This document shows, in pieces, positions 5,641-51,837 of a stretch of DNA of 64,000 nucleotides. A program made the position numbers and the translations under genes. The notes beneath the pieces are model-generated. The model ran no database searches. It was given only the letters and a program-made list of their open reading frames with translations, and had not been told where the DNA came from. How positions within the stretch are numbered: position 1 is the stretch's first letter; each line of letters opens with the position of its first letter. Source of the DNA: Lactiplantibacillus xiangfangensis (GTDB taxonomy: Bacteria > Bacillota > Bacilli > Lactobacillales > Lactobacillaceae); NCBI RefSeq assembly GCF_001438845.1, contig NZ_JQCL01000012.1, forward strand, positions 1 through 64,000, read 5' to 3'.

Positions 5641-7056
5641 ATGAATGAAACCGATAAGACGCCGTCATTAACGGGTCGGCGACGATTTTGGTTCATTTTT
5701 ACATTGTTGACTGGGACGTGGACGATGTCCATTAGCCAGTCTTCATTGTCGACGGTTTACCCGACGTTTATGCGCGACTTTGGGATCTCCGCCTCAACGG
5801 TCCAATGGCTCACAACGGGCTTCATGTTGACGATGGTTGTCATGATGCCAATCAGTCCTTGGTTATTGAATAACATTGGGTTTAAGAAGTTGTTCTTAAC
5901 AGTTCTGGTCCTGTTTGATGTTGGATCGATTATTATTTATTTTGCGTCAAGCTTTCCGGTTATGATGGTTGGACGCTTAATAAAGGCCGCGGCGGTCGGA
6001 GTCCTGTTTCCTTCCTACCAGTCAATCTTACTGACGATTACGCCCGAAGAAAAACGTGGTACGACGATGGGGGTCGCGGGTCTGGTCATGGGATCGGCAT
6101 TAGCCTCTGGCCCAATTATTTCGGGGGTCGTTTTAAAGTTTACTGACTGGCACGGGTTGTTTGCCGTCTTCATTACGGTTGCGACAATCTTAATTTTACT
6201 GAGTTTCCTAACGATTCAAGACGTGATGGTCAACAAACCATCGAAACTCGATTTGATTTCTATCGTGACGTTACTAGGCTTTGCGGGAATTTTATACGTG
6301 GTCAACGAAATTGGTAAACCAAATGTTAACTGGACGTTCGGTTGGGTCTTACTGATTGTGTCTATCTTGGCCGTGGCCTACTTTACGTACCGGCAATTTC
6401 ATTTGGAAACGCCGTTATTGGAACTGCGCGTACTTAAAACGTTTAATTATGATTTAGCTATTTTTCTAACGGCAATTTCGTACGTTGCGTTGATCGTGGT
6501 TACGATTATTTTCCCACTCTACTATCAAGGTGTTCTAAAAGTATCGCCCTTTGTATCCGGGATGGCATTAGTTCCCGGCGCGGTTTTCTTGAGCATTTTA
6601 AACCCATTAACGGGGCGTTTAGCGGAAAAAATTGGGTATAAACAGATCATGTTACTCGGGATGAGTATGATTGTGCTAGGTTGGTTGATCTTAGCGCTCA
6701 TTAGCCAAGAGTTAAACTTAGTCACGATGATTTTGATTGCGGCCCTGATTGAAGGTGGGAACGCCTTTGTCATGATGCCAGCGGTGACCCTCGGTGCGAA
6801 CTCGTTACCGAATGAGTTGATTTCTCACGGGACCGCCGTGATTACTACGGTACGGCAGATTCTAGGATCAGCCGGCGTTGCCGTCGCAACGCTAGTTTTA
6901 TCTAACGTAACGGCTGCACAGCTGAAAGCCGGGGCACCGACCTTGACGGCGAACTTACAAGGTTATCACACGGTTTTCTGGATGATGTTAGGAATTGAAA
7001 TCATGGGCTTACTCTTAGCGTTACTGTTACGGGATGGTCGCCAAGCCAAGAAATAA
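5641..7056 (+). CDS. MFS drug exporter, DHA2 (EmrB/QacA) family, 14 TM
   Basis: Membrane protein of 471 residues with about 14 hydrophobic helices, the length and count expected for proton-driven multidrug exporters of the DHA2 group. TM1 is followed by SSLSTVYPTFMRDFGIS and TVQWLTTGFMLTM, which resemble the group's D/N-x-x-x-V-x-x-x-P and WxxTxYxL motifs. A second half-repeat starts near residue 260. The ribosome site GGGAGGAAT is strong. It is a single-gene unit that ends at a hairpin terminator. Substrate cannot be predicted. Confidence 0.9.
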   Translation: MNETDKTPSLTGRRRFWFIFTLLTGTWTMSISQSSLSTVYPTFMRDFGISASTVQWLTTGFMLTMVVMMPISPWLLNNIGFKKLFLTVLVLFDVGSIIIYFASSFPVMMVGRLIKAAAVGVLFPSYQSILLTITPEEKRGTTMGVAGLVMGSALASGPIISGVVLKFTDWHGLFAVFITVATILILLSFLTIQDVMVNKPSKLDLISIVTLLGFAGILYVVNEIGKPNVNWTFGWVLLIVSILAVAYFTYRQFHLETPLLELRVLKTFNYDLAIFLTAISYVALIVVTIIFPLYYQGVLKVSPFVSGMALVPGAVFLSILNPLTGRLAEKIGYKQIMLLGMSMIVLGWLILALISQELNLVTMILIAALIEGGNAFVMMPAVTLGANSLPNELISHGTAVITTVRQILGSAGVAVATLVLSNVTAAQLKAGAPTLTANLQGYHTVFWMMLGIEIMGLLLALLLRDGRQAKK

Positions 7057-21398: not shown

Positions 21399-21685
21399 AA
21401 AAAAGCGTCGTCCTAAATGATGTGATTCATCATTCAGGACGACGCTTGGCCGTGGTACCACCTGGTTTTAAGTAGTGCTAACTACTTACTCAAAGCGACT
21501 GTTAAAGTGCCAATCGCCAACTAGGTTAACGGGTAGTTAAACCGGCTTTGACTAACCATTGGCTCATCAAAGCGAACTGTTACCGAGACCATCTTCATTG
21601 GTTGCTCCGGTATCGTTCCACCAACCCGATACTCGCTGTACGGTTACGCCAACTACTCATCTTTTAATCGTTCTCTAATTATTGA
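21399..21685 (-). promoter_or_regulatory. T-box leader, methionine specifier
   Basis: On the minus strand the leader holds stem I with AGCGAGTATCGGGTTGGTGG, a candidate specifier ATG followed by A at 21598-21596, the T-box sequence AGGTGGTACCACG (21463-21451), and a terminator of AGCGTCGTCCTGAATGATG with its complement and a T run (21446-21399). Uncharged tRNA-Met should favour the antiterminator and switch on the MetE-like gene. Confidence 0.92.
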
Positions 21686-41672: not shown

Positions 41673-41795
41673 TCGCAACGTGTGACAAAAGATAGTTTGT
41701 TCCGCTTAACCCGGCATTCGTGACTATTCCAAACCCAGAAATAATCACGGATGCCATGTTAATGCTCGCAAATTAACCACCTTTTGTCACACTCT
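41673..41795 (-). repeat. structured repeat C, copy 1
   Basis: Read on the minus strand it runs from GAGTGTGACAAAAGG to CTTTTGTCACACGTTGCG. The outer arms GTGTGACAAAAG and CTTTTGTCACAC are perfect inverted repeats. An inner stem pairs GGCATCCGTGA with TCACGAATGCC. The outer arm supplies the TGA stop codon of the neighbouring hydrolase fragment. Confidence 0.82.
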
Positions 41796-42362
41796 AGCAG
41801 ATAAATATTGGTCGAGAAAGGCCGCAACGTGTTTTTGGTAGGTCGCGGGATCAATCCAAAAACTCTCCGCATGAGTAGCGTCTGGTACTTGCCACATGGA
41901 TTTGGGCCCGCCAGCCGCCTGGTAGTTCTTTTTCAACATCCAGCTAGGGACGTAAACGTCCTTTTCACCGTGAATGAAGAAAATCGGTCGGTCGTTATGG
42001 CGAAGCTGTTCAACGGAACTTACGTCGCTCAAAAAGTAACCCATGCGGTGACGGTTAATAAAACTAACGATTGGGACGAAGGGATACTTCGGTAAGTGGA
42101 ACTGGCGTTTAAGCAAGTAGGCGAGTTCCTCTTCAATGCTAGTATAGCCGCAGTCGGCGATGATGGCTTTAACTTGTTCGGGTAACTGTTCACCGCTCAT
42201 CATTTCGACGGTGGCCCCACCCATGCTGACCCCGAAGAGCACGATTTGAGTCCGTGGACCGCTGTGCTTAATGACGCGGTCGATCCAGCCAAGGTAGTCG
42301 CGGCGGTCTTGCCACCCAAAACTGATGTATTTACCAGCACTTTGACCGTGACCGCAATACCG
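41787..42362 (-). pseudogene. 5'-truncated alpha/beta hydrolase
   Basis: The open frame begins just after a TGA (42365-42363) and reads GHGQSAGKYISFGWQDRRDY, then LFGVSMGGATVEMM with the nucleophile Ser, GEKDVYVP with the Asp, and DATHAESF with the His. This is the C-terminal part of a membrane-linked alpha/beta hydrolase that is normally about 300 residues. The first third, with the membrane helix and oxyanion region, is missing. The start was removed by a deletion that fused it, out of frame, to the upstream lipoprotein gene. Translation from an internal ATG near 42242 would give a 151-residue fragment, which is unlikely to work. Confidence 0.8.
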
Positions 42363-42712
42363 TCATGAAAACTCACGCTGATGATGGCGCCTTCTAAACT
42401 AGTGTCCGGATGCTTCCAGACGTAGGTTTTAAGTGAACGTTGTGCGACGGTGGTCACGTTATTAGTCTGGCTCGGTTGACCGAGGAGCGCGTGGACTTGC
42501 TCGATGGTACTGGCATAGTCGTCGGGTTCAATTGCTAATTGAATCCGATCAAAATTCGTTCGTGTGACACCGGGAACGCGTTTGCGAGGTGCGGTGCGTG
42601 CCGTGGGTGCGTCGTCGTGGTGATTAGCGGGGTGCGTTGAAGCGGTGTGTCCACACGCCGTTAACGCGATAAGTGCCCAGCCTGAAAGCACCACGATGAT
42701 GGTTCTTAACAT
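42200..42712 (-). CDS. DUF3862-like lipoprotein with an aberrant, out-of-frame C terminus
   Basis: A lipoprotein signal (ALIALTACGH, Cys at residue 20) and a Thr/His/Pro linker precede a small domain at about 55-125. In that domain NFDRIQLA, TIEQVHALLGQPS, LKTYVWKHPDTSLEGAIISVSFHDG matches the secreted DUF3862 fold. The natural domain would end shortly after SFHDGIAV. Here the frame instead runs on for some 45 residues through DNA that belongs, in another frame, to an alpha/beta hydrolase. The first 125 residues probably fold normally; the tail (TVKVLVNTSVLGGKTAATT onward) is an artefact of the deletion. Confidence 0.78.
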   Translation of the reverse strand: MLRTIIVVLSGWALIALTACGHTASTHPANHHDDAPTARTAPRKRVPGVTRTNFDRIQLAIEPDDYASTIEQVHALLGQPSQTNNVTTVAQRSLKTYVWKHPDTSLEGAIISVSFHDGIAVTVKVLVNTSVLGGKTAATTLAGSTASLSTAVHGLKSCSSGSAWVGPPSK

Positions 42713-42810: not shown

Positions 42811-42964
42811 AAAAAAACCACCGTATCGGGGAATACGGTGGAAAAAGGAGTAGGGTAGACATGTGACGGGGAATCACATGCCACTATGAATTTCATTACT
42901 TTGGAGGAGTAAATGAAAAATTTTAGGTTGTGTTATAGCTGATTGAGTTAACCTCAATTGCTAT
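42811..42964 (-). ncRNA. candidate small RNA 1 with C-rich anti-SD loops
   Basis: On the minus strand a -10 box TATGAT (42976-42971) leads into about 150 nt of RNA. It has a stem-loop with CTCCTCC in its loop (42917-42892), a second with TTCCCCG (42880-42860), a linker CTACCCTACTCCTTTTT, and a terminator stem CCACCGTAT/ATACGGTGG with loop TCCCCG and seven T residues (42841-42811). No open frame with a ribosome site is present. Two relatives lie at 48543 and 51598. Confidence 0.72.
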
Positions 42965-42984
42965 GATGCTATCATACCGAGGTC

Positions 42985-43002
42985 GTGTGAAGAATGTGTG
43001 AA
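42985..43002 (-). promoter_or_regulatory. tandem GTGTGAA activator-like site upstream of small RNA 1
   Basis: GTGTGAA occurs at 42985-42991 and 42996-43002, an 11-bp period, over the place where a -35 box should be; no -35 consensus exists. The inner GTGAA ends the 10-nt gap from the -10 box, as it does at small RNA 2. This looks like an OmpR-family response-regulator site. Confidence 0.55.
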
Positions 43003-43064
43003 CGAATCAGTTCAATGTAATGAAAAAAGTAATAAGTAAAAATTAAGCATCTTCATCAGTGCGG

Positions 43065-43763
43065 TTAATTATCATCCCGGTTTCCACCGAAGAGCAGGAT
43101 CAGCCGCAATAATTGTAAGAACGTTGATAGTGCGGCAGCAACGTAGGTGAGGGCTGCTGCAACGAGTACTTTGCGCACCATCGGAATTTCGTCGCGGGTG
43201 AGCACTTGACCGTCAGATAGAATCTGCAAGGCTCGGCGGGATGCGTTAAATTCAACGGGTAACGTGACTAATTGGAACAGTAGCGCTAAAGAAAATAGGA
43301 AGATCCCGATGTGAATGATGGTCTGATTGTAACTTAGCAGTACCCCGACGATGATAATTGGTAGTGAAAGGGTTGAGCCAAAGTTAGCAACTGGAACGAT
43401 GGCGGACCGTAAGCGCATTGGCCAATAGTTCACGTGATCTTGAACGGCGTGCCCGCATTCGTGAGCGGCGACCCCGATGGCGGCAACGGACGTGGAATCC
43501 GCGGTCGCTTCAGATAAGCTGAGAACTTTTGTCTGACCGTTGTAGTTATCAGTCAAGTCACCGCTGATTTTTTGGACGCCGACGTTATTAATACCGGACT
43601 GCGCCAAAATAAAGCGGGCGGCGTCACTACCAGAATAGTTGGACTGGCTACGGTAGTTGTCAAAATGCCGGAACGTGCGGTTAACGTAACCGGACGCCGC
43701 CATGGAAATGAGCAGTCCGATGATGACTAAAAAATAGGTTGGATCAAAAAATGAATAGAACAA
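43065..43763 (-). CDS. membrane zinc metallopeptidase (YugP-like)
   Basis: Protein of 232 residues with an N-terminal membrane helix, the zinc motif HECGH in AIGVAAHECGHAVQDHVNYW near residue 102, and three further hydrophobic helices. This is the layout of the YugP / neutral zinc metallopeptidase family found in most Firmicutes. LPVEFNASRRALQIL carries the conserved third-ligand Glu region. The membrane location suggests a quality-control or surface-processing protease, but no substrate is known to me. Confidence 0.9.
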   Translation of the reverse strand: MFYSFFDPTYFLVIIGLLISMAASGYVNRTFRHFDNYRSQSNYSGSDAARFILAQSGINNVGVQKISGDLTDNYNGQTKVLSLSEATADSTSVAAIGVAAHECGHAVQDHVNYWPMRLRSAIVPVANFGSTLSLPIIIVGVLLSYNQTIIHIGIFLFSLALLFQLVTLPVEFNASRRALQILSDGQVLTRDEIPMVRKVLVAAALTYVAAALSTFLQLLRLILLFGGNRDDN

Positions 43764-43931
43764 ATTAATTCCTCCTGGGTCGTTTGATTGTTAATCGATA
43801 TTTTATCAGATTTGATTTGCAGTTACCAAGTTTAGAAAGTCAAAAGTGTTTTTTCTGTTAACTAACGAATTGGCTCGGTATAATGCGGTTGTCTAGAAGT
43901 GACACGCATTTAAAGTTAGGGGTAAGCACGA

Positions 43932-44111
43932 ATGGAAAAGACTTATCGGACGCTAACGTATGGAAACATGCCGTTAAAGCTAGATTCTGGCAGTAGCTGG
44001 ATCTTTCCAAAGGGTGTGGAAGTGAAGGCAAAGGTTGATTTGGAAACCGGACAAGTGACGTTCTTTGTGGATGCTAAGGACTTAGAATTATTGCGATCAG
44101 TTGATAAATAA
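43932..44111 (+). CDS. 59-residue protein of unknown function
   Basis: A short gene with AGGGGT seven bases before the ATG and normal codon use. It encodes MEKTYRTLTYGNMPLKLDSG, then SSWIFPKGVEVKAKVDLETG and QVTFFVDAKDLELLRSVDK. The pattern predicts a small all-beta fold with a C-terminal helix and no membrane segment. It is divergent from the zinc metallopeptidase and ends at a strong terminator. I do not recognise the family. Confidence 0.75.
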   Translation: MEKTYRTLTYGNMPLKLDSGSSWIFPKGVEVKAKVDLETGQVTFFVDAKDLELLRSVDK

Positions 44112-44145
44112 TAAAAGTGGGGCCCAAGATAGCTTGAGGGGCTTG

Positions 44146-44185
44146 CGTAAAAAAGCTGCTCAGAAGTCTGGGCAGCTTTTTTACG
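44146..44185. terminator. bidirectional terminator
   Basis: CGTAAAAAAGCTGC and GCAGCTTTTTTACG form a perfect stem between the convergent 59-aa gene and the PucR-like gene. Confidence 0.92.
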
Positions 44186-44187
44186 TT

Positions 44188-45759
44188 TTAAAATTTAGTT
44201 TCGTCCGCGCGCCGTTGATGCGGTTGTGGATCGTTGGTAGGTAGTGTATTGGTTGGACTGTAGTTGTTGCTGACTAAGAAGCGTTGTAACTTGAAACTCG
44301 AAGCTAGTTTGAAACAGGTCTCCGCGTCATGCAGGTCACAACCGGTGAGTGCCGTGATGTGGCTCAAGCGATTACGTAACGTATTCGGATGGATGTACAA
44401 ATTTTTAGCCGTTTGCGTCAGGTTACAGGTGGCACATAAATAACCGTCCAGGGTGGCGACTAAAGCGGTGTTGTTTTTAGCGTCGTAGGCAAGTAATTCT
44501 TGTAGCGCCGGATTAATAAAGAAGGGTAAGATTTCAATGTGATTCACCCGGTCAAAGGCAAGGTTGTAAAATTGGTCTTCACAAAAGACGAGTCGGCCCC
44601 GGTACGTCTTAAGCCGGTCAGTTCGGTTACAAACGGTGTAAGCGGCGAACGTGTCCTCCGGGTTAACGTAGTGCTGCGAAACGATGAGGCGGCAGTCGGC
44701 TTGTTTGGTAATTCGGTGTAAGGTGGTCTTAAACTTGGGACTGTTATAATTCACCAGGCTGATGGAAATTAGGGCGAAACATTGCTGTTTAAACGTTGAA
44801 ACGAGCACTTGCTTGAAGTGGGGCACCAGTAAGTATTGCAGGCGCTGCTGGAGGATATGAGCCGACTGGTTAGTCAGTGGGTCACATTTAATGAGCACCA
44901 TGGCATCCGGTAAAACGGCCCGTTGTTCTTCGAATTGCGCTGCGAAGGTGGTACTCTGGCGTTCAGTTAGCAGCATGTTTAAGAGTTGGTCGCGCTGAGA
45001 CTCCGAGGTCGGCATGATTTGATTCTTAACGACGGAGCCGGCAATCACCTGACCAATTTGGTTGATCAATAGGGCTTGGACGTCGTTTAACGGTGTTTTC
45101 ATAGTGGTCATGACCAAATAGCCGATGGGTTCATGTGCATTGGCTAACGGGGTAATCAACATGGGTCCCGCGGCGAGATCGTCGTTAACCATGTAGACCT
45201 GAGTCAAAAAATTAGGGTTGTCCGGGGCAAAGCCGTGTTCTAGTAACCAACGGGCAATCTTATTATTTTCAATTGCGGCGTGGATACTGGGACCGTTAAT
45301 ATTCGTGGTATGTGAACGGGATAAGATTTGACCATTGAGGTCGATGATGGCCACTGGATTTTGCAATAAGTTGACTACGGCCTGTAACGTGGTGTCAAAG
45401 TCGGCGGTGATGGCGTTGATCGCTAACGTGTTGATATCAGCCTGCAGTTTATCCGTTGGGCCTAGTGACTGGCCGATTTGGATCAAGAGTTTCAGCAACT
45501 GGCTTTGAAGGGCAATCGTTGTTGTCGAGTGCGCGCCAAGTTTAATGGACCCAATAACGATTTCCTGCTGGTGTTCCCAACAACTCAGTTGAACATCGTA
45601 ATCGTCATTAGGACGCAAATACAAGCAGTTTGATTTGTGGTCAAACTGGGGATCGGAAAAGGCAGCCCGCTTAATTTCTGGATTATGGTGATCCAATGAC
45701 ATGGTGGTCGATAATTCAAATTCTAAGGCAATTTTTTTAAGTAATGATTTTAATTTCAT
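44188..45759 (-). CDS. PucR/CdaR family transcriptional regulator
   Basis: The 523-residue protein has a middle sensor region (about 110-250) with a GAF-like stretch VAIIDLNGQILSRSHTT and ends in the PucR-type helix-turn-helix, TCNLTQTAKNLYIHPNTLRNRLSHITALTG, near residue 455. Regulators of this class usually activate neighbouring catabolic genes in response to a small metabolite. The nitroreductase / decarboxylase-like / SDR operon lies directly upstream on the same strand, separated by a terminator. A cre box in its promoter region suggests repression when glucose is abundant. Confidence 0.88.
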   Translation of the reverse strand: MKLKSLLKKIALEFELSTTMSLDHHNPEIKRAAFSDPQFDHKSNCLYLRPNDDYDVQLSCWEHQQEIVIGSIKLGAHSTTTIALQSQLLKLLIQIGQSLGPTDKLQADINTLAINAITADFDTTLQAVVNLLQNPVAIIDLNGQILSRSHTTNINGPSIHAAIENNKIARWLLEHGFAPDNPNFLTQVYMVNDDLAAGPMLITPLANAHEPIGYLVMTTMKTPLNDVQALLINQIGQVIAGSVVKNQIMPTSESQRDQLLNMLLTERQSTTFAAQFEEQRAVLPDAMVLIKCDPLTNQSAHILQQRLQYLLVPHFKQVLVSTFKQQCFALISISLVNYNSPKFKTTLHRITKQADCRLIVSQHYVNPEDTFAAYTVCNRTDRLKTYRGRLVFCEDQFYNLAFDRVNHIEILPFFINPALQELLAYDAKNNTALVATLDGYLCATCNLTQTAKNLYIHPNTLRNRLSHITALTGCDLHDAETCFKLASSFKLQRFLVSNNYSPTNTLPTNDPQPHQRRADETKF

Positions 45760-45811
45760 GACGACGTATCCCCCATATGTCAGTCTATAAGTTCAACTTA
45801 ATGATAAAGAA

Positions 45812-45825
45812 TGAAAGCGCTTTTG
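45812..45825. promoter_or_regulatory. cre site upstream of the PucR gene
   Basis: TGAAAGCGCTTTTG matches the cre consensus TGWAARCGYTWNCW at 12 of 14 positions. It lies about 55 bp from the PucR start. Confidence 0.65.
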
Positions 45826-45852
45826 TAAAGACGGGTAGGTTGAGTAAAAGCG

Positions 45853-45898
45853 ACAAAAGCACCTGCATGAACAAAGTTGTTCAGCAGGTGCTTTTGTT
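45853..45898 (-). terminator. terminator of the SDR-Adc-nitroreductase operon
   Basis: ACAAAAGCACCTGCTGAACA and its complement TGTTCATGCAGGTGCTTTTGT form a long stem with a T run on the minus strand. Confidence 0.92.
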
Positions 45899-45916
45899 AA
45901 AACTAGGAATTAAAAT

Positions 45917-46567
45917 TTAAAGGAAGTCTGTCTGAGTTTTAGAATCGTAACGCGTTGTGTGAAGTGGCTCTTTAGCAGCTTTCCCAATTGCGACCCCCAT
46001 AACGGGAACGTAGCGCTTTGGATCTAAGCCTAAGGTTGGAATCATCTTTTCGAAGTCAATCCCAGAGAAGGCGTTGGCGTCGTAACCGTGGGCCCGTGCA
46101 ACTAAGAGTAATTGCATCCCGACGGTTGAGCAATCAATCGTTGCGTCAAACTTTAAGAAGTCTGGGGTGGCATTTTCATAAAGTGGTAAGAACGTGCCTA
46201 GAATTTGATCCAAGCGTTCCTTAGTGATGTTACCAGCCTTGTAAACTTTGTTCCAAACGTCGCGGTAAACCAAGTGTGACTGGGTATCGCCGGCGATGAA
46301 GACGATGGCTGAAGCGCTGTCCACTTGTGGATAGTTGAATTTCATCACAGCTTTTTTGAATTTTTCTTTAGCTTCAGGGGTATCGATGACGACGAAGTGC
46401 CATGATTGTAAGTTGCATGCGGATGGTGCGGTGGCTGCTTCCGAAATCATTGTTTGCAATTCATCGCGGTTGATTTTAACACTAGGGTCAAAGGCCCGAA
46501 CCGAGTGACGGTTAAACATCACGTCGGATAAGTCGTTATTTACTAATTCTTTAGTGGTTTCTGACAT
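45917..46567 (-). CDS. nitroreductase family oxidoreductase
   Basis: FMN-dependent protein of 216 residues. DVMFNRHSVRAFDPSVKI is the N-terminal FMN-binding segment, AATAPSACNLQSWHFVVID the second, and the C-terminal GLDPKRYVPVMGVAIGKAA the usual end of the fold. It is the last gene of a three-gene operon with an acetoacetate-decarboxylase-like protein (30 bp upstream) and an SDR. It may act on an enone or quinone made or used by those two enzymes, but the pathway is not identified. Confidence 0.9.
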   Translation of the reverse strand: MSETTKELVNNDLSDVMFNRHSVRAFDPSVKINRDELQTMISEAATAPSACNLQSWHFVVIDTPEAKEKFKKAVMKFNYPQVDSASAIVFIAGDTQSHLVYRDVWNKVYKAGNITKERLDQILGTFLPLYENATPDFLKFDATIDCSTVGMQLLLVARAHGYDANAFSGIDFEKMIPTLGLDPKRYVPVMGVAIGKAAKEPLHTTRYDSKTQTDFL

Positions 46568-46597
46568 AGTTGAACCTTCCTTTCAAAAAGTTAATCG

Positions 46598-47440
46598 TTA
46601 AATGATATACGTCGTGTCTTTCTGGTTAAAGAAGCCCCGGTCGTAGCGGCCCGTTAATAGTTTCGGCATGGTGACGTCGGCATCGACCGTGTCGAGTTTC
46701 AACGTATTGAACATAACCGATGTATCCATGTGGAACCAAGCGGCACCTAATGGCTTCAATACTTTCAATTCGCCCAATGGATCGTCAGGGGTTGAATGCA
46801 TTTCAATGTCTAAGTGGCCTGGTTCAACTTGGTCACAGAGTGAACGGAGTTGGGTGGCAACAAGTTGGACATTTTCAAAGTGGTTAGTCCCGTCATCATG
46901 TTGGTCAATATCATACTTGTAGAAGAAACTGTTCATTTCAGCTTCTTTACCTAAAGCTAATTGGCCAGCAAACTGCTTCATGATTGACGGATCGTTGAGT
47001 TCGCCCGCGTCCCATGAAACCTTCATTAAGGTCTTGCCGTGACGGTCAACGGTTGCGTATGCGCCGTCGTCGGTCCGCCGTAATTCGATGGCGTCGGCGA
47101 GTTTCTTAGGAATACCAGCGCCTTCACGGCCAGCAATTACACCACTTTCAGCACCAGGGCCGTGGAGCAATAAGGTCAATGGGTAAGCGCCCATCATCTT
47201 ATCTTTGTAGCTAACTAATGCGAACAAGCTTTGTTCAAGGTATGGGCCGCCAAAGGTTGGTTTGCCCATGTGAACAACGTAGCCGCAAACAACGGGCGCA
47301 ACTAATTTGAGTGGTGCGGGAATGAGGCTAGCTAACGTTGCTGGATCGGTTGCGTATGCGAAGCCAATCCCTTCTTGATCATTCATGCTAGGTGACTTTA
47401 AGAAGTTCTTTACATCATCGTTACTTACTACAAATGCCAT
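46598..47440 (-). CDS. acetoacetate decarboxylase family protein
   Basis: Protein of 280 residues. The Adc signature AGREGAGIPKKLADAIELRR holds the adjacent Lys pair, one of which forms the Schiff base in acetoacetate decarboxylase. VVCGYVVHMGKPTFGGPYLEQSL and GAYPLTLLLHGPGAESG match the substrate-cavity strands. Members outside the clostridial solvent pathway often perform aldolase-dehydratase or other Schiff-base chemistry, so acetone formation should not be assumed. ATG 47440 follows AAGGAG at 8 bases; GTG 47449 lies inside that gap. Second gene of the SDR operon. Confidence 0.9.
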   Translation of the reverse strand: MAFVVSNDDVKNFLKSPSMNDQEGIGFAYATDPATLASLIPAPLKLVAPVVCGYVVHMGKPTFGGPYLEQSLFALVSYKDKMMGAYPLTLLLHGPGAESGVIAGREGAGIPKKLADAIELRRTDDGAYATVDRHGKTLMKVSWDAGELNDPSIMKQFAGQLALGKEAEMNSFFYKYDIDQHDDGTNHFENVQLVATQLRSLCDQVEPGHLDIEMHSTPDDPLGELKVLKPLGAAWFHMDTSVMFNTLKLDTVDADVTMPKLLTGRYDRGFFNQKDTTYII

Positions 47441-47467
47441 AATAAACACTCCTTTTGAATGACTACG

Positions 47468-48331
47468 TTACATGATGCCGTCCATAATGTGGACGTCTGG
47501 TTTGCCATCGTTGACGATCCGGTTGACCCGGTCGCTAATTAATGGGTTGAATTCTGGGTGGGTCAAAATGTAGAAGCGGTTATCTTCCAAGGCTTTAAAG
47601 ACGGTCTCTTCGATCGTGTCGATTGGTTTACCGTTGGTGATAACGTACTTCGCAAATTGTTGTCCCTTTAAGTAAGCTTCGCTTTGATAGTATGGATCAC
47701 TTGGGTCACTGTATTGTTCTGGCCGGTGATTTTCGGTATGGTACAAATCGGTTTGAACGAAGCCAGGGCACATCACGTGCATGTCAATGTCAGCTTTGAT
47801 CCGTTGCAAGTCGTAAGCCGTCGCTTCGGTCATCCCAACTGAGGCAAACTTGCTAGCGTGATATGACGGCATCCCGGGGGTGTCGACTAAGCCGGCAATG
47901 GAGGCAACGTTTAAAATGTCGCCATGGGTCTTTTGCTTCAACATGATTGGAATGACACGTTGCATGGCGTAAACCTGACTCATCAAGTTAATATGCATGA
48001 TCCATTCCCAATCGCGGCTTGGTAATTCCCAAATCCGGCCGGGAAGGGCGATACCGGCGTTGTTGATTAGTAAATCAATCTGGCCGAACTTGTCCATGGT
48101 TTGTTGAATGGCATTGTCCACGTTATCTTCAACCGTAACGTCGGCGGTCACCATAATCGCTTCGGCGCCTAAATCATCAGTAATGGTTTTGTAGGTTTTC
48201 TCCAGGGCGGGACCGTCAATATCAACGAGAGCTAAGCGCATGCCGCGCTTGGCACCGCCTTCTGCGATCACTTGGCCAAAACCATGGGCCGCACCCGTAA
48301 TGAACATTACTTTGTTTTTAAAATCTTTCAT
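47468..48331 (-). CDS. short-chain dehydrogenase/reductase
   Basis: NAD(P)-dependent oxidoreductase of 287 residues, longer than the usual 250. It shows TGAAHGFG (cofactor loop), LVDID (acidic residue favouring NAD), NNAGIALPGRIWE, and the catalytic Ser-Tyr-Lys set in NVASIAGLVDTPGMPSYHASK. The C-terminal extension after residue 200 includes ENHRPEQYSDPSDPYYQSEAY and may form a substrate lid. It opens the operon with the Adc-like and nitroreductase genes. A cre box and a tiny upstream leader frame precede it. Confidence 0.92.
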   Translation of the reverse strand: MKDFKNKVMFITGAAHGFGQVIAEGGAKRGMRLALVDIDGPALEKTYKTITDDLGAEAIMVTADVTVEDNVDNAIQQTMDKFGQIDLLINNAGIALPGRIWELPSRDWEWIMHINLMSQVYAMQRVIPIMLKQKTHGDILNVASIAGLVDTPGMPSYHASKFASVGMTEATAYDLQRIKADIDMHVMCPGFVQTDLYHTENHRPEQYSDPSDPYYQSEAYLKGQQFAKYVITNGKPIDTIEETVFKALEDNRFYILTHPEFNPLISDRVNRIVNDGKPDVHIMDGIM

Positions 48332-48365
48332 CGTAATACCTCCTCCAAAATTAGTTGTGATAGTT

Positions 48366-48398
48366 TTATAAAAGTCGACTCTTATGGGCGGGAATCAT
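48366..48398 (-). CDS. possible 10-codon leader peptide of the SDR operon
   Basis: The transcript has AAGGAGGGTGAA directly ahead of ATG and ten codons reading MIPAHKSRLL before TAA. This lies 34 bp before the SDR start, which has its own GGAGGAGG. The ribosome site is among the strongest in the window, which is unusual for chance sequence. Whether the peptide is made or only its translation matters is unknown. Confidence 0.4.
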   Translation of the reverse strand: MIPAHKSRLL

Positions 48399-48420
48399 TT
48401 CACCCTCCTTAACAAGGTCT

Positions 48421-48449
48421 ATCATAACTTAAAATTGGAAGCGCTTTAA
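48421..48449 (-). promoter_or_regulatory. promoter and overlapping cre site of the SDR operon
   Basis: On the minus strand -35 TTAAAG (48449-48444), a 17-bp spacer and -10 TATGAT (48426-48421) form the promoter. The cre-like TGGAAGCGCTTTAA at 48436-48449 (12 of 14 positions) overlaps the -35 box, so CcpA would block RNA polymerase. Confidence 0.65.
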
Positions 48450-48542
48450 CGGTGAAAAGCACCAAAGTTATTGCCAAGACACTGTGGACTATCTACATGT
48501 AAATAATTTCACAATTAAATTTTGGGCTGAAAAAATACCAAC

Positions 48543-48686
48543 AAAAAACCTCCGTACGGGGAATACGGAGGAAAAGGGAAAGTAAATATTTAAGTATACA
48601 CACACATCTATTCATTGCTTGGGGAGGTAATGAATTGAAGTTAGGGGTCGTTAAGGAATGGGAAGTTCCTTAATGACTATAAATAT
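48543..48686 (-). ncRNA. candidate small RNA 2 with C-rich anti-SD loops
   Basis: On the minus strand a -10 box TATACT (48698-48693) leads into about 144 nt. It has TAAGGAACTTCCCATTCCTTA with loop TTCCC, then AATTCATTACCTCCCCAAGC with loop CCTCCCC, a linker ACTTTCCCTTTT, and a terminator CCTCCGTA/TACGGAGG with loop TTCCCCG and six T residues (48571-48543). Loops and terminator closely match small RNA 1. Confidence 0.72.
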
Positions 48687-48708
48687 AAATACAGTATAAC
48701 GAGCGGTC

Positions 48709-48724
48709 GTGAAGGAAATGTGAT
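48709..48724 (-). promoter_or_regulatory. tandem GTGAA activator-like site upstream of small RNA 2
   Basis: GTGAA (48709-48713) and GTGAT (48720-48724) repeat with an 11-bp period and start exactly 10 nt from the -10 box, the same geometry as at small RNA 1. A -35 consensus is absent. Confidence 0.55.
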
Positions 48725-48924
48725 GTCAAAATAGTAAAAACGTGATTTTCATTTGAAAAAATGATTTTTGGTTGCGTAGCACACGCTTTTACAAAGTTTA
48801 TAATCGATTTACGACATACAGGCAACTAATCGGTGTACAGAACGCTGATTTACCGCGGGTTTCAGCTTCCCCCAAATTGACGATGCTATAATAAGTCTCA
48901 AATTCGTTGAAAGCGGGATTCCTT

Positions 48925-49764
48925 ATGAGCATAAAAATCGTGACCGATTCTGCGGTGCGTCTGACCGCAGCAGAAATTGAACAATATAACATTGCAGTCG
49001 TACCATTATTAGTCGGGTTTGGGAGCGATTTGATTGCTGATACGGCCGTTGACCCCGCCCAATTTGACCAACAAATGCGGGTCAGTCCCAGTTTACCCAC
49101 AACCAGCCAACCACCGATCGGCAACTTTGTCAGCATTTACGACGCGTTGACTGCGGATGGTAGCCAAGTCTTATCACTTCATCTAACGGAGACGTTGAGC
49201 GGGACCGTTAACGCGGCCCGACAAGCGGCTGAACTATGCGATGGGGACGTGACGGTGATCGATACGCAGAGTGCGGATCGCGGGATGGCCTTTCAAGTTT
49301 TGACGGCGGCACGAATGGCGCATGCCGGTGCCACCTTAGACACAATTTTAGCCAAAATCACGGTTATTCGTGAACACACTAAGACCTACCTATTTGTCGA
49401 TACTTTGGACAACCTGGTTAAGGGTGGTCGGGTGCCGAAATTAGCTGGCGTTGTGACGAATTTGATTAAGCTGAAGTTCGTTTTCGAATTGGCTGAAGGT
49501 AAGCTGAAACTTTATACCCGTGGACGCGGGAAGAAAGCGCTGATTAAAGCTCAGGAACGAATCTTAGCGGAGTTACAAGATGCGACGCGGGTCGAAGCGG
49601 CCGGAATTTCCTACGTGGGCGATCCTAGTGTGGCGGATGAACCGGAAGCCCTGTTGAAAAAGGTGGCGCCACAAGCTGACTTAATGGTTGCGAGAACTAG
49701 CGCAGTGATTGCGACCCATGCCGGAATTGGCGCATATGCTTTGATGTTTTATACTGTAGATTAA
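48925..49764 (+). CDS. DegV family fatty-acid-binding protein
   Basis: Protein of 279 residues. DegV (FakB) proteins bind a fatty acid so that FakA kinase can phosphorylate it. IVTDSAVRLTAAEIEQYNI, VVPL, TSQPPIGNFVSIYD and LHLTETLSGTVNAARQAAE are the family's lipid- and head-group-binding motifs, with the Thr-Ser pair in TSQPP. LDNLVKGGRVPKLAG and a C-terminal VIATHAGIGAYALMFY are also typical. ATG 48925 is preferred; a TTG at 48907 lacks a ribosome site. Divergent from the small RNA 2 locus. Confidence 0.93.
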   Translation: MSIKIVTDSAVRLTAAEIEQYNIAVVPLLVGFGSDLIADTAVDPAQFDQQMRVSPSLPTTSQPPIGNFVSIYDALTADGSQVLSLHLTETLSGTVNAARQAAELCDGDVTVIDTQSADRGMAFQVLTAARMAHAGATLDTILAKITVIREHTKTYLFVDTLDNLVKGGRVPKLAGVVTNLIKLKFVFELAEGKLKLYTRGRGKKALIKAQERILAELQDATRVEAAGISYVGDPSVADEPEALLKKVAPQADLMVARTSAVIATHAGIGAYALMFYTVD

Positions 49765-49940
49765 ATTATGGGTGTCATTGTACTATTAAATTAATCTTAA
49801 GTATGCTATAATTAAAAAATGATAATTTAGAGCCGTGTTGGTGCACTGTTCTGAGCCTAACCACCATGAAAATGATGACTAGACCCGGATGGGGCGCCTT
49901 TTTTGTTACTAATGGACACTTAAAGAAAGTAGGAAAATGT
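49765..49940 (+). promoter_or_regulatory. promoter and long leader of the lrgB-lrgA operon
   Basis: An extended -10 (TGCTATAAT, 49804-49812) starts a leader of about 120 nt, with GGTG/CACC-type complementary segments and GGCGCC followed by six T residues at 49894-49905. It may fold and control the operon, but I could match it to no known riboswitch. Upstream in-frame ATGs at 49866 and 49875 lack ribosome sites. Confidence 0.4.
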
Positions 49941-50669
49941 GTGAATTATCTTCTCAATAATCCATTTTTTGGGATTGGACTATCGGTCCTAGTTTATGGG
50001 ATTGGCGAGTATTTATATCACAAAACAAATCGCTTCGTACTATTCCAACCGTTGTTTTTTGGAATGCTGCTCGGGATTGGTTTATTGGTATTGATGGCGT
50101 CGATTCTACGGACACCTGTACAAAAAGTTTACGAAGCGTACCAGATTGGTGGCGACTGGCTGTTCTGGTTGGTTGCACCGGCCACGGTCTCGTTTGCCGT
50201 ACCGTTATATAAGCGTAATGATATCTTCAAAAAACACTGGGACGTGATCCTAGTTGCCCTGTTTATAGGATTGTTGTTATCTCTGTTTGGCATTTATGGC
50301 GTCTCACGATTATTAGGCTTAACCGATGCAGCTTTGGGTGCGATGTTAGTTCAAGCGGCAACGACCGCGATTGCCTTACCGGTAGCTGAATCGGTCGGTG
50401 GTGATCAGGCGATCGCAGCCTTTGCGGTTATTCTGAATTCAGTCTTGATTTACGCCCTGGGTGATCACTTTATTCGCTGGTTTAAGTTGCATAAGAATCC
50501 ACTAGGCGCAGGCTTGGGATTTGGGATTGCGGGTAACGCTGTGGGCGCTACGAAGGCCATTGAAGTGAGCGAAGCCGCGGGTGCAACCGGCGCCATTGCT
50601 TTTGTTATCGCGGGGATTTTAGTGAACTTCATGGTACCGGGATTTGCTAGTTTCGTTGGCTTAGGTTAG
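49941..50669 (+). CDS. lrgB: LrgB/CidB family membrane protein
   Basis: Protein of 242 residues with seven or eight helices, belonging to the LrgB (antiholin-like, PF04172) family. NPFFGIGLSVLVYGIGEYLYHKT and GDWLFWLVAPATVSFAVPLYKR match the N-terminal signature, while KAIEVSEAAGATGAIAFVIAGI matches the conserved C-terminal part (family: A....E..GA.S.LA). GTG 49941 fits AGGA at a proper distance. With LrgA it is thought to affect autolysis or transport of pyruvate-like metabolites. The B gene here precedes the A gene, the reverse of the usual order. Confidence 0.9.
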   Translation: MNYLLNNPFFGIGLSVLVYGIGEYLYHKTNRFVLFQPLFFGMLLGIGLLVLMASILRTPVQKVYEAYQIGGDWLFWLVAPATVSFAVPLYKRNDIFKKHWDVILVALFIGLLLSLFGIYGVSRLLGLTDAALGAMLVQAATTAIALPVAESVGGDQAIAAFAVILNSVLIYALGDHFIRWFKLHKNPLGAGLGFGIAGNAVGATKAIEVSEAAGATGAIAFVIAGILVNFMVPGFASFVGLG

Positions 50670-50680
50670 GAGGAAACTGA

Positions 50681-51100
50681 ATGAAAAAAGGAATGTTTAT
50701 TCGTCAGATTATGATTTACGGTGTGATTTTATTTGCCAGTAGCTTGCTGTCAAACTTATCCAGTCAGTTATGGCCAGCTTTTCCGATGCCGACCGCGTTG
50801 ATTGGGATGATTATGTTGTACTTACTCCTGACCTTTAAAGTAGTTAAGCTGGAACACGTCGCAGGTGTGAGCAACTTCTTCGTCCAGATTATTAGTTTAA
50901 TTTTTATTCCATCCGGGATTGCCTTAGTGACGAAGCTGGACGTGTTAAAAGCAGAAGGGTTACAAATTATTTTGGTCATCATGATTTCAACGTTGATGCT
51001 GTTGCTATTTACCGCTGGAATTGCGTGGGTGCTTATTCAAGTTAAGGAATGGCTACAAGCACGAGTTGGTCGTTCGGCTGGAGAAATTGAAGAGGATTAA
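50681..51100 (+). CDS. lrgA: LrgA/CidA family holin-like protein
   Basis: Four-helix membrane protein of 139 residues. LWPAFPMPTALIGMIMLYLLL is the conserved segment (family: PIPGSVIGMLLLFLLL), and SNFFVQIISLIFIPSGIALV the second (family: FIPAGVGL). The start follows TTAGGAGG and lies 11 bp after lrgB, which indicates a shared transcript. The family acts as holin-like partners in cell lysis, or as part of a small-molecule channel; both views exist. A terminator follows at 51172. Confidence 0.9.
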   Translation: MKKGMFIRQIMIYGVILFASSLLSNLSSQLWPAFPMPTALIGMIMLYLLLTFKVVKLEHVAGVSNFFVQIISLIFIPSGIALVTKLDVLKAEGLQIILVIMISTLMLLLFTAGIAWVLIQVKEWLQARVGRSAGEIEED

Positions 51101-51171
51101 ATCTTGGTGGCATTGCATTTACTAAGCAGTAGATGTTGTACCAGTTAGATCTAGTCAATCATGAAACGTTG

Positions 51172-51211
51172 AGGGGAAAAGCGGTGGGGCCGTTGCTTTT
51201 TCCCTTTTTAT
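51172..51211 (+). terminator. terminator after lrgA
   Basis: GGGGAAAAGCGG pairs with CCGTTGCTTTTTCCC (bulged), followed by five T residues. Confidence 0.75.
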
Positions 51212-51221
51212 TAGCCACCTC

Positions 51222-51344
51222 GGTAGCCAGAACCGGTGTGCTATGGGGGACGGTCCCAGCCACACTGCGGTCTGTGACCTCGATTCAAAGCCGATACCCC
51301 ACGTCTGCCAATTTTGCCGACACAGCACACCAATTCTGGCTGCC
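51222..51344 (-). repeat. structured repeat B, copy 4, with nested element ends to 51595
   Basis: On the minus strand the arms CAGCCAGAATTGGTGTGCT and AGCACACCGGTTCTGGCT pair. One of the internal hairpins (the ATTGGCAG stem) has lost its second strand. From 51365 to about 51595 lies a further element in the same orientation, whose B interior is deleted and which ends in CTAAAGGCTGAAAG. The whole 390-base stretch holds no gene. Confidence 0.75.
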
Positions 51345-51597
51345 TTCGCTAAATCGTGTTCTAATTTGAAATTCTTGCGTTGCTGAAGACAAGTACCGCT
51401 GATATAACAGGAATGAGATCGACTTTTAGTTAGAAAACTAAAAGTCTAAAACTGCTATTAACACCGTAATAGTAAGGATAGTTATGCCTGGATTACCCGA
51501 CTGCGCTAAAACAGACTTACTATTGTGATTCGGATAACCGGATTAACTCGCAGGTAGTCAATCCCTAAATTTAACTTTCAGCCTTTAGTCAGAAAAT

Positions 51598-51802
51598 AAA
51601 AAAAGCCACTACATCAAGGATGCAGTGGTCAAGGAGTAGGAAACATCAAAGTGGGGGCTTTGATGAACCCCATTCATAAGACTTGGGGGAGTCCATGAAT
51701 GAAAATAATCACTAGTCGACGTTATGGCAGCAACGCCACTAATAATCTAAAAACTAAAGAATATTAAGGATTGACAGTCAGTTGGTCACTTACTATCAAT
51801 CT
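51598..51802 (-). ncRNA. candidate small RNA 3 with C-rich anti-SD loops
   Basis: On the minus strand a full promoter (-35 TTGCAG 51837-51832, 17-bp spacer, -10 TATAAT 51814-51809) leads into about 205 nt. The 3' half has CATTCATGGACTCCCCCAAG as the first arm and loop of a stem (loop CTCCCCC), then CATCAAAGCCCCCACTTTG as a second (loop CCCCC). A linker TTTCCTACTCCTTGA and a terminator CCACTGCAT/ATGTAGTGG with seven T residues (51628-51598) complete it. The layout matches the other two candidates, but its promoter differs. Confidence 0.72.
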
Positions 51803-51808
51803 GCGACT

Positions 51809-51837
51809 ATTATAAGTGCAAACCCTAGCGGCTGCAA
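51809..51837 (-). promoter_or_regulatory. sigma-A promoter of small RNA 3
   Basis: TTGCAG, 17 bp, TATAAT on the minus strand. Unlike small RNAs 1 and 2 it has a recognisable -35 and no GTGAA tandem. Confidence 0.7.

Follow-up and report, generated by a model that had tools for sequence, protein, structure and literature searches.

Predicted multicopy structured small RNAs with a core complementary to translation start sites in Lactiplantibacillus xiangfangensis and other Lactobacillaceae

The window analysed here is a stretch of 64,000 nucleotides (nt) of Lactiplantibacillus xiangfangensis DNA (assembly GCF_001438845.1, contig NZ_JQCL01000012.1, positions 1 to 64,000). Its minus strand appears to encode three small RNAs (sRNAs), S1, S2 and S3, each of which has an intrinsic terminator at the 3' end. 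By reading of the sequence, S1 is located upstream of a gene for a lipoprotein and S2 upstream of one for a short-chain dehydrogenase, and S3 lies between an LrgA-like gene and an acetyltransferase gene. The RNAs were characterized computationally as members of a family, with respect to structure, covariation, promoter box, distribution, and complementarity to Shine-Dalgarno (SD) sequences and start codons. The features of the three RNAs are:

42811..42964, minus strand: S1 sRNA, about 154 nt, 5' end placed from the -10 box and 3' end from the T run
42971..43002, minus strand: S1 promoter, TTCACA-N5-TTCACA, 9 nt, -10 TATGAT, conserved in the genus alignment
42891..42918, minus strand: S1 hairpin 1 (core), anti-start arm TTTCATT and anti-SD loop CTCCTCC; reverse complement includes GGAGGAGTAAATGAAA
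42858..42882, minus strand: S1 hairpin 2, loop TTCCCC, compensated stem variation with 6 of 9 pairs changed on both sides
42842..42857, minus strand: S1 linker TACCCTACTCCTTTTT, rich in pyrimidines and another anti-SD motif, all but the first two letters invariant in the S1 alignment
42811..42841, minus strand: S1 intrinsic terminator, loop TTCCCC, T run (sequence reading and terminator scan)
48543..48686, minus strand: S2 sRNA, about 144 nt, from the fold and the match to the covariance model built from S1 only
48693..48724, minus strand: S2 promoter, ATCACA-N5-TTCACG, 9 nt, TATACT, three mismatches to the S1 pattern
48651-48673 and 48610-48635, minus strand: S2 hairpins CTTCCCA and ACCTCCCC, the latter with a CCTCCCC loop
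48549-48571, minus strand: S2 terminator, loop TTCCCC
51598..51802, minus strand: S3 sRNA, about 205 nt, the segment 51600-51711 comprising core, second hairpin, linker, and terminator
51809..51837, minus strand: S3 promoter, TTGCAG-17-TATAAT, of sigma-70 type, without the response-regulator box, well conserved in 19 orthologues

An original prediction, made from the letters of the window, had placed three paralogous RNAs at these coordinates, and the RNAs were found there on the strand claimed. Their folding z-scores are -7.6 (S1), -5.5 (S2), and -5.9 (S3, folded with its promoter, 51598-51837), and in each case 0 of 200 shuffled sequences fold as well. The loops and linkers are as described: the linker of S1 contains CCCTACTCCTT (sequence reading), that of S2 is CTTTCCC, and S3 has the loops ACTCCCCCA and GCCCCCA and the linker CCTACTCCTT. 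The CU-rich single-stranded linker CUACUCCUU is common to S1 and S3. The proposed common architecture holds for the loops, linkers, and terminators, but not for the order of the hairpins in S2, in which the TTCCCA hairpin precedes the CCTCCCC hairpin. The terminator loop TTCCCC occurs in two of the RNAs, as had been noted, namely S1 and S2, whereas the terminator loop of S3 lacks CCCC. Between the C-rich hairpins of S3 lies an AATGGGG segment that might base-pair with C-rich motifs, those of S3 itself or others. The 5' half of S3 contains a conserved stretch, TTGCTGCCATAA.

S1 is present near full length in 21 of 21 genomes of the genus, including that of L. xiangfangensis (DNA search of 60 relatives, 26 of which matched). 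The sequences flanking S1 diverge among the relatives, while the RNA and its promoter stay alike. In the alignment of 20 distinct S1 sequences, 96.6% of the cells in helices are paired. Changes on both sides of a helix affect 8 pairs and 26 cells, compared to 3.0 and 7.5 in shuffles, and 0 of 500 shuffles score as high. Six of the 9 pairs of hairpin 2 account for most of the covariation; the terminator and the 5' hairpin contribute one pair each, and the 5' hairpin is the weakest helix (88% of cells paired). All ten pairs of the hairpin 1 stem are unchanged, and therefore its sequence, beyond pairing, seems constrained. The earlier description of variable stems with C-rich loops fits hairpin 2 and, between copies, the terminator; it does not apply to the CTCCTCC hairpin, the stem of which is invariant.

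A covariance-model search, suggested together with the original prediction, was performed with a model built from 17 of the 21 S1 orthologues, the S1 of the window among them. In the window, the model recovers S1 (E-value 6e-31, as a member of the training set), S2 (2.3e-5), and S3 (2.5e-5), with no further match at E ≤ 1. There are also no matches at E ≤ 1 in 86 other loci comprising 278 kb, from which the duplicate L357 and the loci L361, L362, and L363, containing S1 or S3, were omitted. The same model gives 66 matches at E ≤ 1, including the types S2 to S6, in 30 of 31 sources; the sources had been picked as expected carriers of members, except L320, which was picked as a non-member. Among 59 loci outside the genus that were selected by the promoter box described below, 37 matches at E ≤ 0.1 are distributed over 34 loci. 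A second model, trained on all 66 matches, has none in 293 kb of other loci, and its scores for S1, S2, and S3 are circular. The model, the presence of S1 in all genus genomes searched, and the compensatory changes bear out the idea of a multicopy structured sRNA family.

The original prediction missed the copies outside the window, the shared promoter box, and the different promoter of S3. The genome of L. xiangfangensis (G000) contains at least two more copies, S4 on contig C100 at about 221.4-221.6 kb and S6 on contig C81 from about base 85, and the S1-only model matches S4 in locus L051 and S6 in locus L321. S4 (L051, 5585-5410, minus strand) is longer and has extra hairpins with C-rich loops. 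S3 was found in 19 of 20 clusters from relatives in the genus, L038 being the cluster without it. A further type, S5, is located downstream of S1, at a distance of about 0.2-2.8 kb, in all 20 clusters retrieved from relatives, and a DNA search with S1 gave no match of the S5 type in the L. xiangfangensis genome. The window is about 1.4 kb shorter than genome G004 near 42350-42365. In the comparison of window positions 41787-42712 with G004, the window lacks the 3' part of the lipoprotein gene, S5, and the first part of a hydrolase gene, and what remains of the two genes is directly adjoined, unless the region was misassembled. Genome G006 (L036) contains an array of eight model matches in about 14 kb.

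A direct repeat of approximately TCACA-N5-TTCACA, positioned 9 nt before the -10 element (TANNNT), is common to the promoters of S1, S2, S4, and S6. It seems to be the kind of box that is bound by OmpR-type response regulators. The box is exact in S1 and S6, is mismatched in S2 and S4 of the L. xiangfangensis genome, and does not occur in S3 or S5. The S1 promoter has no mismatches to the search pattern, which was itself written from S1. The promoter arrangement of S2 is similar in the 10 S2 orthologues compared. In five genomes of the genus, the strict box has 11 matches, all of which belong to such RNAs (S1 in 5 of 5, S6 in 5 of 5, and one S4), compared to 0 in the controls. A loose form of the pattern matches 14 places in the L. 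xiangfangensis genome versus 9 in controls; L079 and L084, which were inspected besides S1, S2, and S6 as candidate protein genes under the box, looked like chance matches.

The strict box occurs at 96 places in 65 of 251 Lactobacillaceae genomes, representing 17 of 40 genera, with 0 matches for the reversed controls. Seventy of the 96 places were retrieved and 68 distinct loci were read. In 63 of the 68 loci, one of which, L314, precedes a protein gene, the stretch up to the terminator or the first 160 nt contains at least two CU-rich tetramers; the loci contain 414 such tetramers in total, compared to the 172 expected from shuffles. A search of the order outside Lactobacillaceae identified nine places versus three for the reversed controls. 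Six of the eight that were read drive similar RNAs (L405, L407-L411), L406 is inside a reading frame, and L412 is without such an RNA.

The conserved core of the RNAs, UUUUCAUUUACUCCUCC, is the reverse complement of the start site GGAGGAGUAAAUGAAAA. Read backwards, it corresponds to GGAGG-AGUAA-AUGAAAA and is the exact complement of an SD sequence followed by AUGAAAA. Therefore, the core consists of an anti-SD sequence in the loop and an anti-start and anti-AAAA sequence in the 5' arm. In several genera, the 3' arm pairs with the UUUUACU part alone and UUUUUCA is free, with UUUUUCAUU still kept; UUCAUU is fixed by the pattern of the core search but not by that of the box search. The spacing pattern of anti-start and anti-SD sequences is found in 44 of the 68 box loci, compared to 14.6 expected, and 84 of 145 distinct members have ACTCC downstream of the core, compared to 17.9 in shuffles.

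The core pattern TTCATT-N0-3-ACTCCYCCAAAGT occurs in 25 of 395 genomes of the order and 8 of 80 genera, with 0 matches in controls. Named genomes contain at least 118 stretches with the core, 80 of which are listed. The genera among the matches listed are Lactiplantibacillus, Levilactobacillus, Secundilactobacillus, Lacticaseibacillus, Loigolactobacillus, Agrilactobacillus, Paucilactobacillus, and Lactobacillus, and a core of Enterococcus nangangensis is also among them. The cores in a few unrelated taxa look like chance matches; four of these were scored and have no box (L133, L185, L198, L199), and L157 is unscored. A contig assigned to Faecalicatena absiana (L163) contains two cores, one with a box, and may represent lactobacillus contamination. 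When the analysis starts from the core, 112 of 173 occurrences, and 93 of the 143 distinct ones, are preceded by a box agreeing at 14 or more of 17 positions. Two occurrences had too little upstream sequence for scoring, and the distribution of agreement has two peaks.

We consider it likely, from the sequences compared, that S1, S2, and S3 belong to one family of trans-acting sRNAs that block translation start sites, and that S1, S2, S4, and S6 are controlled by an OmpR-family regulator. The complementarity of the core to both the SD sequence and the start codon strongly suggests that the RNAs silence translation by pairing with ribosome binding sites. Each RNA carries several redundant motifs complementary to ribosome binding sites. 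The first is the core, with the anti-SD sequence CUCCUCC or a C-rich variant of it, usually beside the anti-start sequence UUUUCAUU. The others are the second C-rich hairpin loop, the CU-rich linker, and, in S1 and S2, the C-rich terminator loop. Pairing with the SD sequence and start codon of many mRNAs would prevent ribosome binding, and the best fit to the core would be expected of mRNAs starting with AUGAAAA, which often encode secreted or membrane proteins. S1, S2, S4, and S6 are most likely switched on by the response regulator at the box 9 nt upstream of the -10 element, whereas S3 would be an RNA of the same kind under a constitutive-looking promoter. We infer that the RNAs are expressed in this manner and that the signal of the regulator is probably cell-envelope stress.

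Of the genes in the L. xiangfangensis genome that have an SD sequence and start with AUGAARAA, 12 of 26 distinct ones encode hydrophobic N-termini, compared to 1 of 20 with the control start ATGNCAGA (frames shorter than 40 codons, three loci on each side, were omitted, and one of 31 places had no locus). When the genes in the window are ranked by the duplex energy with S1, a short-chain dehydrogenase gene (48331) and an LrgA-like gene (50681) are first. Hydrophobic N-termini are encoded by 3 of the 10 best and 6 of the 46 other genes among the 56 ranked, numbers too small for a conclusion. Window positions 49866-51100 contain two membrane-protein genes resembling an LrgB/LrgA pair, and at the start of the second gene S1, S2, and S3 all have a very favourable predicted target.

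The L. xiangfangensis genome encodes seven OmpR-type DNA-binding domains. A profile of five of its response regulators detected two response regulator frames alone in the sRNA loci scanned (L165 and the chance locus L198), and therefore neighbouring two-component genes give no useful clue. The response regulator on contig C53 is nearest to the NCBIfam entry PieR, although below its cut-off (297.8 of 450 bits). Similar regulators are present in 82 of 121 genomes of the family and in 27 of the 28 that have the box, the exception being G441, which is 65% complete. This co-occurrence has a hypergeometric p of 6e-5, which ignores phylogeny and rests on sets intersected by hand. In 10 of the 29 loci scored out of 30, the PieR-like gene is preceded by box-like sites (12 or more of 15 positions). 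The PieR-like protein is the favoured candidate for the regulator of the box, an assignment that we regard as evenly balanced between right and wrong.

Several observations weigh against the proposed family, mechanism, or regulator. Since S3 and S5 have no box, the box cannot define the whole family. Sixty-one of the 173 core occurrences (50 of 143 distinct ones) lack a good box; these comprise the S5 type, a CCCCC type of Levilactobacillus, members from Lactobacillus sensu stricto, and chance matches. A rule-based terminator was identified in only 48 of the 68 box loci (within 200 nt in 47), four of the 68 (L275, L309, L314, L319) look like starts of protein genes, and the S1-only model finds nothing in 25 of the 59 box-selected loci from other genera. 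The anti-start spacing pattern occurs in 0 of 8 box loci of genus g4 and in 1 of 12 of genus g16. The double changes in 27 of 29 pairs of the 66-row alignment (A4) are counts from an alignment that was fitted to the model. Since proteins that begin with MKK generally tend to have signal peptides, the hydrophobic bias of AUGAARAA genes serves only as a consistency check. The link to the PieR-like regulator is correlative. The box matches of G062 and G471 all precede protein genes, and without these two genomes the PieR-like regulator is present in 25 of 26. No site agreeing at 12 or more of 15 positions was found in 19 of the 29 regions upstream of PieR-like genes, and the sites that do occur are not 9 nt from a -10 element. 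The response regulator represented by L248 is also enriched (17 of 28 genomes with the box versus 34 of 121), although it is absent from 11 of the 28, and the one represented by L249 is a competing candidate that is nearly universal (118 of 121 genomes). Loci of genus g16 and of named Levilactobacillus genomes (L111-L116, L127, L132, L139) have a TTCATTTTACTCCCCCAAAGTAGATGAAA hairpin without the box, and these probably represent a second promoter class.

The strongest alternative retains the same sRNAs and assigns them to PhoP, so that the box would be a Pho box and the RNAs would respond to phosphate starvation. The Pho box of Bacillus has the shape TTHACA-N5, which TTCACA-N5-TTCACA fits, and the region upstream of the pst-like genes of L. 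xiangfangensis reads TTTACA-TAATC-TTTACA. However, the pst site of the genus has a T in each half where the sRNA boxes have a C, and none of the four protein genes that follow a strict box in the loci read resembles a pst gene. We regard control by PhoP as unlikely. A perfect TTTACA-N5-TTTACA upstream of a pst-like operon (L320, about 6820-6875, minus strand) is a likely PhoP site of the genus.

The many redundant C-rich loops, and the GGGG segment of S3 that is able to pair with C-rich stretches, would also be expected of RNAs that titrate an RNA-binding protein or a different sRNA, as decoys or sponges, and do not act by pairing with mRNA start sites. However, the core complements the start codon and AAAA at natural SD spacing as well, which a C-rich decoy does not need, and this possibility appears slightly less probable than that of PhoP. 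It is very improbable that the core instead represents the translation start of a small plus-strand peptide (GGAGG-AGTAA-ATGAAAA), mirrored in the minus-strand reading. The plus strand at 42903-42920 does read as an SD sequence and ATG, but the frame at S1 has nine codons and the sequence after it differs between copies, the promoter box, -10 element, and terminators all indicate the minus strand, and the compensatory changes preserve RNA hairpins. Although intrinsic terminators are common hairpins, the view that the three RNAs are mere terminators or fragments of 3' untranslated regions with chance C-rich loops deserves practically no credit, given that the S1 RNA and promoter are conserved while the flanks diverge, that changes are compensatory, and that the model has 0 matches in 278 kb of other loci.

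The proposed start-site-blocking sRNAs under an OmpR-family regulator resemble several known systems. In streptococci, the RNAs controlled by CiaR are known as csRNAs. In the report on the CiaRH regulon, the csRNAs are likewise multicopy, end in terminators, and have an N5 direct repeat near the -10 element that is bound by an OmpR-family protein (PMC3091779). The CiaR box of that search is NTTAAG-N5-TTTAAG, ten nt from the -10 element, and the same paper reports no CiaH homologue in Lactobacillus (PMC3091779). The CiaR box is not found in the promoters of S1, S2, and S4, which have NTCACA-N5-TTCACA or close variants at 9 nt, and S3 has neither. As in the present core, UUUUCAUU...CUCCUCC, the csRNAs in that text have anti-SD and anti-start (CAU) sequences proposed to block translation; they differ in that the sequences against the translation initiation region are in unpaired regions, whereas here they are at least partly in a hairpin. 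S1, the copy examined for the csRNA nonamer [A/C]UCCUAAA[A/C], has AACCUAAAA before the core, with one mismatch.

LhrC1-5 of Listeria, the induction of which by envelope stress depends on LisRK, are similar in their multiplicity, three CU-rich motifs, and blocking of the SD sequence; the LisR-responsive element is upstream of -53, whereas the present box is beside the -10 element (PMC4132741). Redundant CU-rich motifs in a loop, a single strand, and a terminator loop, as in LhrC, are present in S1 and S2, and S3 lacks the C-rich terminator loop. For S1-S4, S6, and three relatives, LhrC is not among the Rfam matches listed at E-values of up to 5. For both the csRNAs and LhrC, at least one defining feature was looked for here and is absent. 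The C-rich loops of RsaE/RoxS in Firmicutes pair with ribosome binding sites; the present RNAs share such loops, but RsaE/RoxS is not among the Rfam matches listed for them. The consensus of Ref84 (Enterococcus sRNA 84, RF02846) contains UUUUUCAUUUUACUCU and UACUCCUUUUCC and has a matching terminator. Its scores are 39.9-43.9 bits for the box-driven relatives L407-L409 of family f2 and 29.3 for S1, and none reaches the gathering score of 52 bits (best 43.9). By these scores, Ref84 is a sub-threshold relative with the box-driven f2 RNAs as its best matches. The statement that the RNAs belong to no named family is thus correct at Rfam gathering scores, which no family reaches for these RNAs, but overlooks this relative. 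Among known families, lax thresholds gave weak sub-threshold matches to Ref84, rli32, and others, none of them convincing. Elsewhere in the window, positions 21432-21677 (minus strand) contain a T-box leader above the Rfam gathering score.

Transcript mapping of Lactobacillus casei BL23, a Lacticaseibacillus, by mDOT-seq listed 307 putative sRNAs, two of which were said to be like Enterococcus families, and members of the present family may be included as unnamed transcripts (PMC8220740). The available part of that study contains no family, box, or mechanism of the present kind (PMC8220740). Among the matches listed in searches of an open-licence library (at most 20 per search), no title or start of abstract describes the family in Lactobacillaceae.

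By the sequence evidence, the widespread sRNA family is real; what is new is the family with its common promoter, and RNAs of this kind are already known. The results suggest that RNAs present in several copies and blocking start sites under the control of an OmpR-type box are common in Lactobacillaceae and extend to further families of Lactobacillales, including food and probiotic genera in which little is known of sRNA biology. The box, the core sequence, and the covariance model may be used for annotation, and the regulator candidate is testable. As a tentative extension, which we think somewhat doubtful, a two-component system widespread in Lactobacillaceae may act almost wholly through start-site-blocking RNAs tuned to AUGAAAA mRNAs, its strict binding sites driving hardly anything else, so that envelope stress would brake the synthesis of secreted and membrane proteins, with Ref84 as a branch of the regulon. 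If true, the system would be a Gram-positive counterpart of the enterobacterial sigma-E sRNAs.

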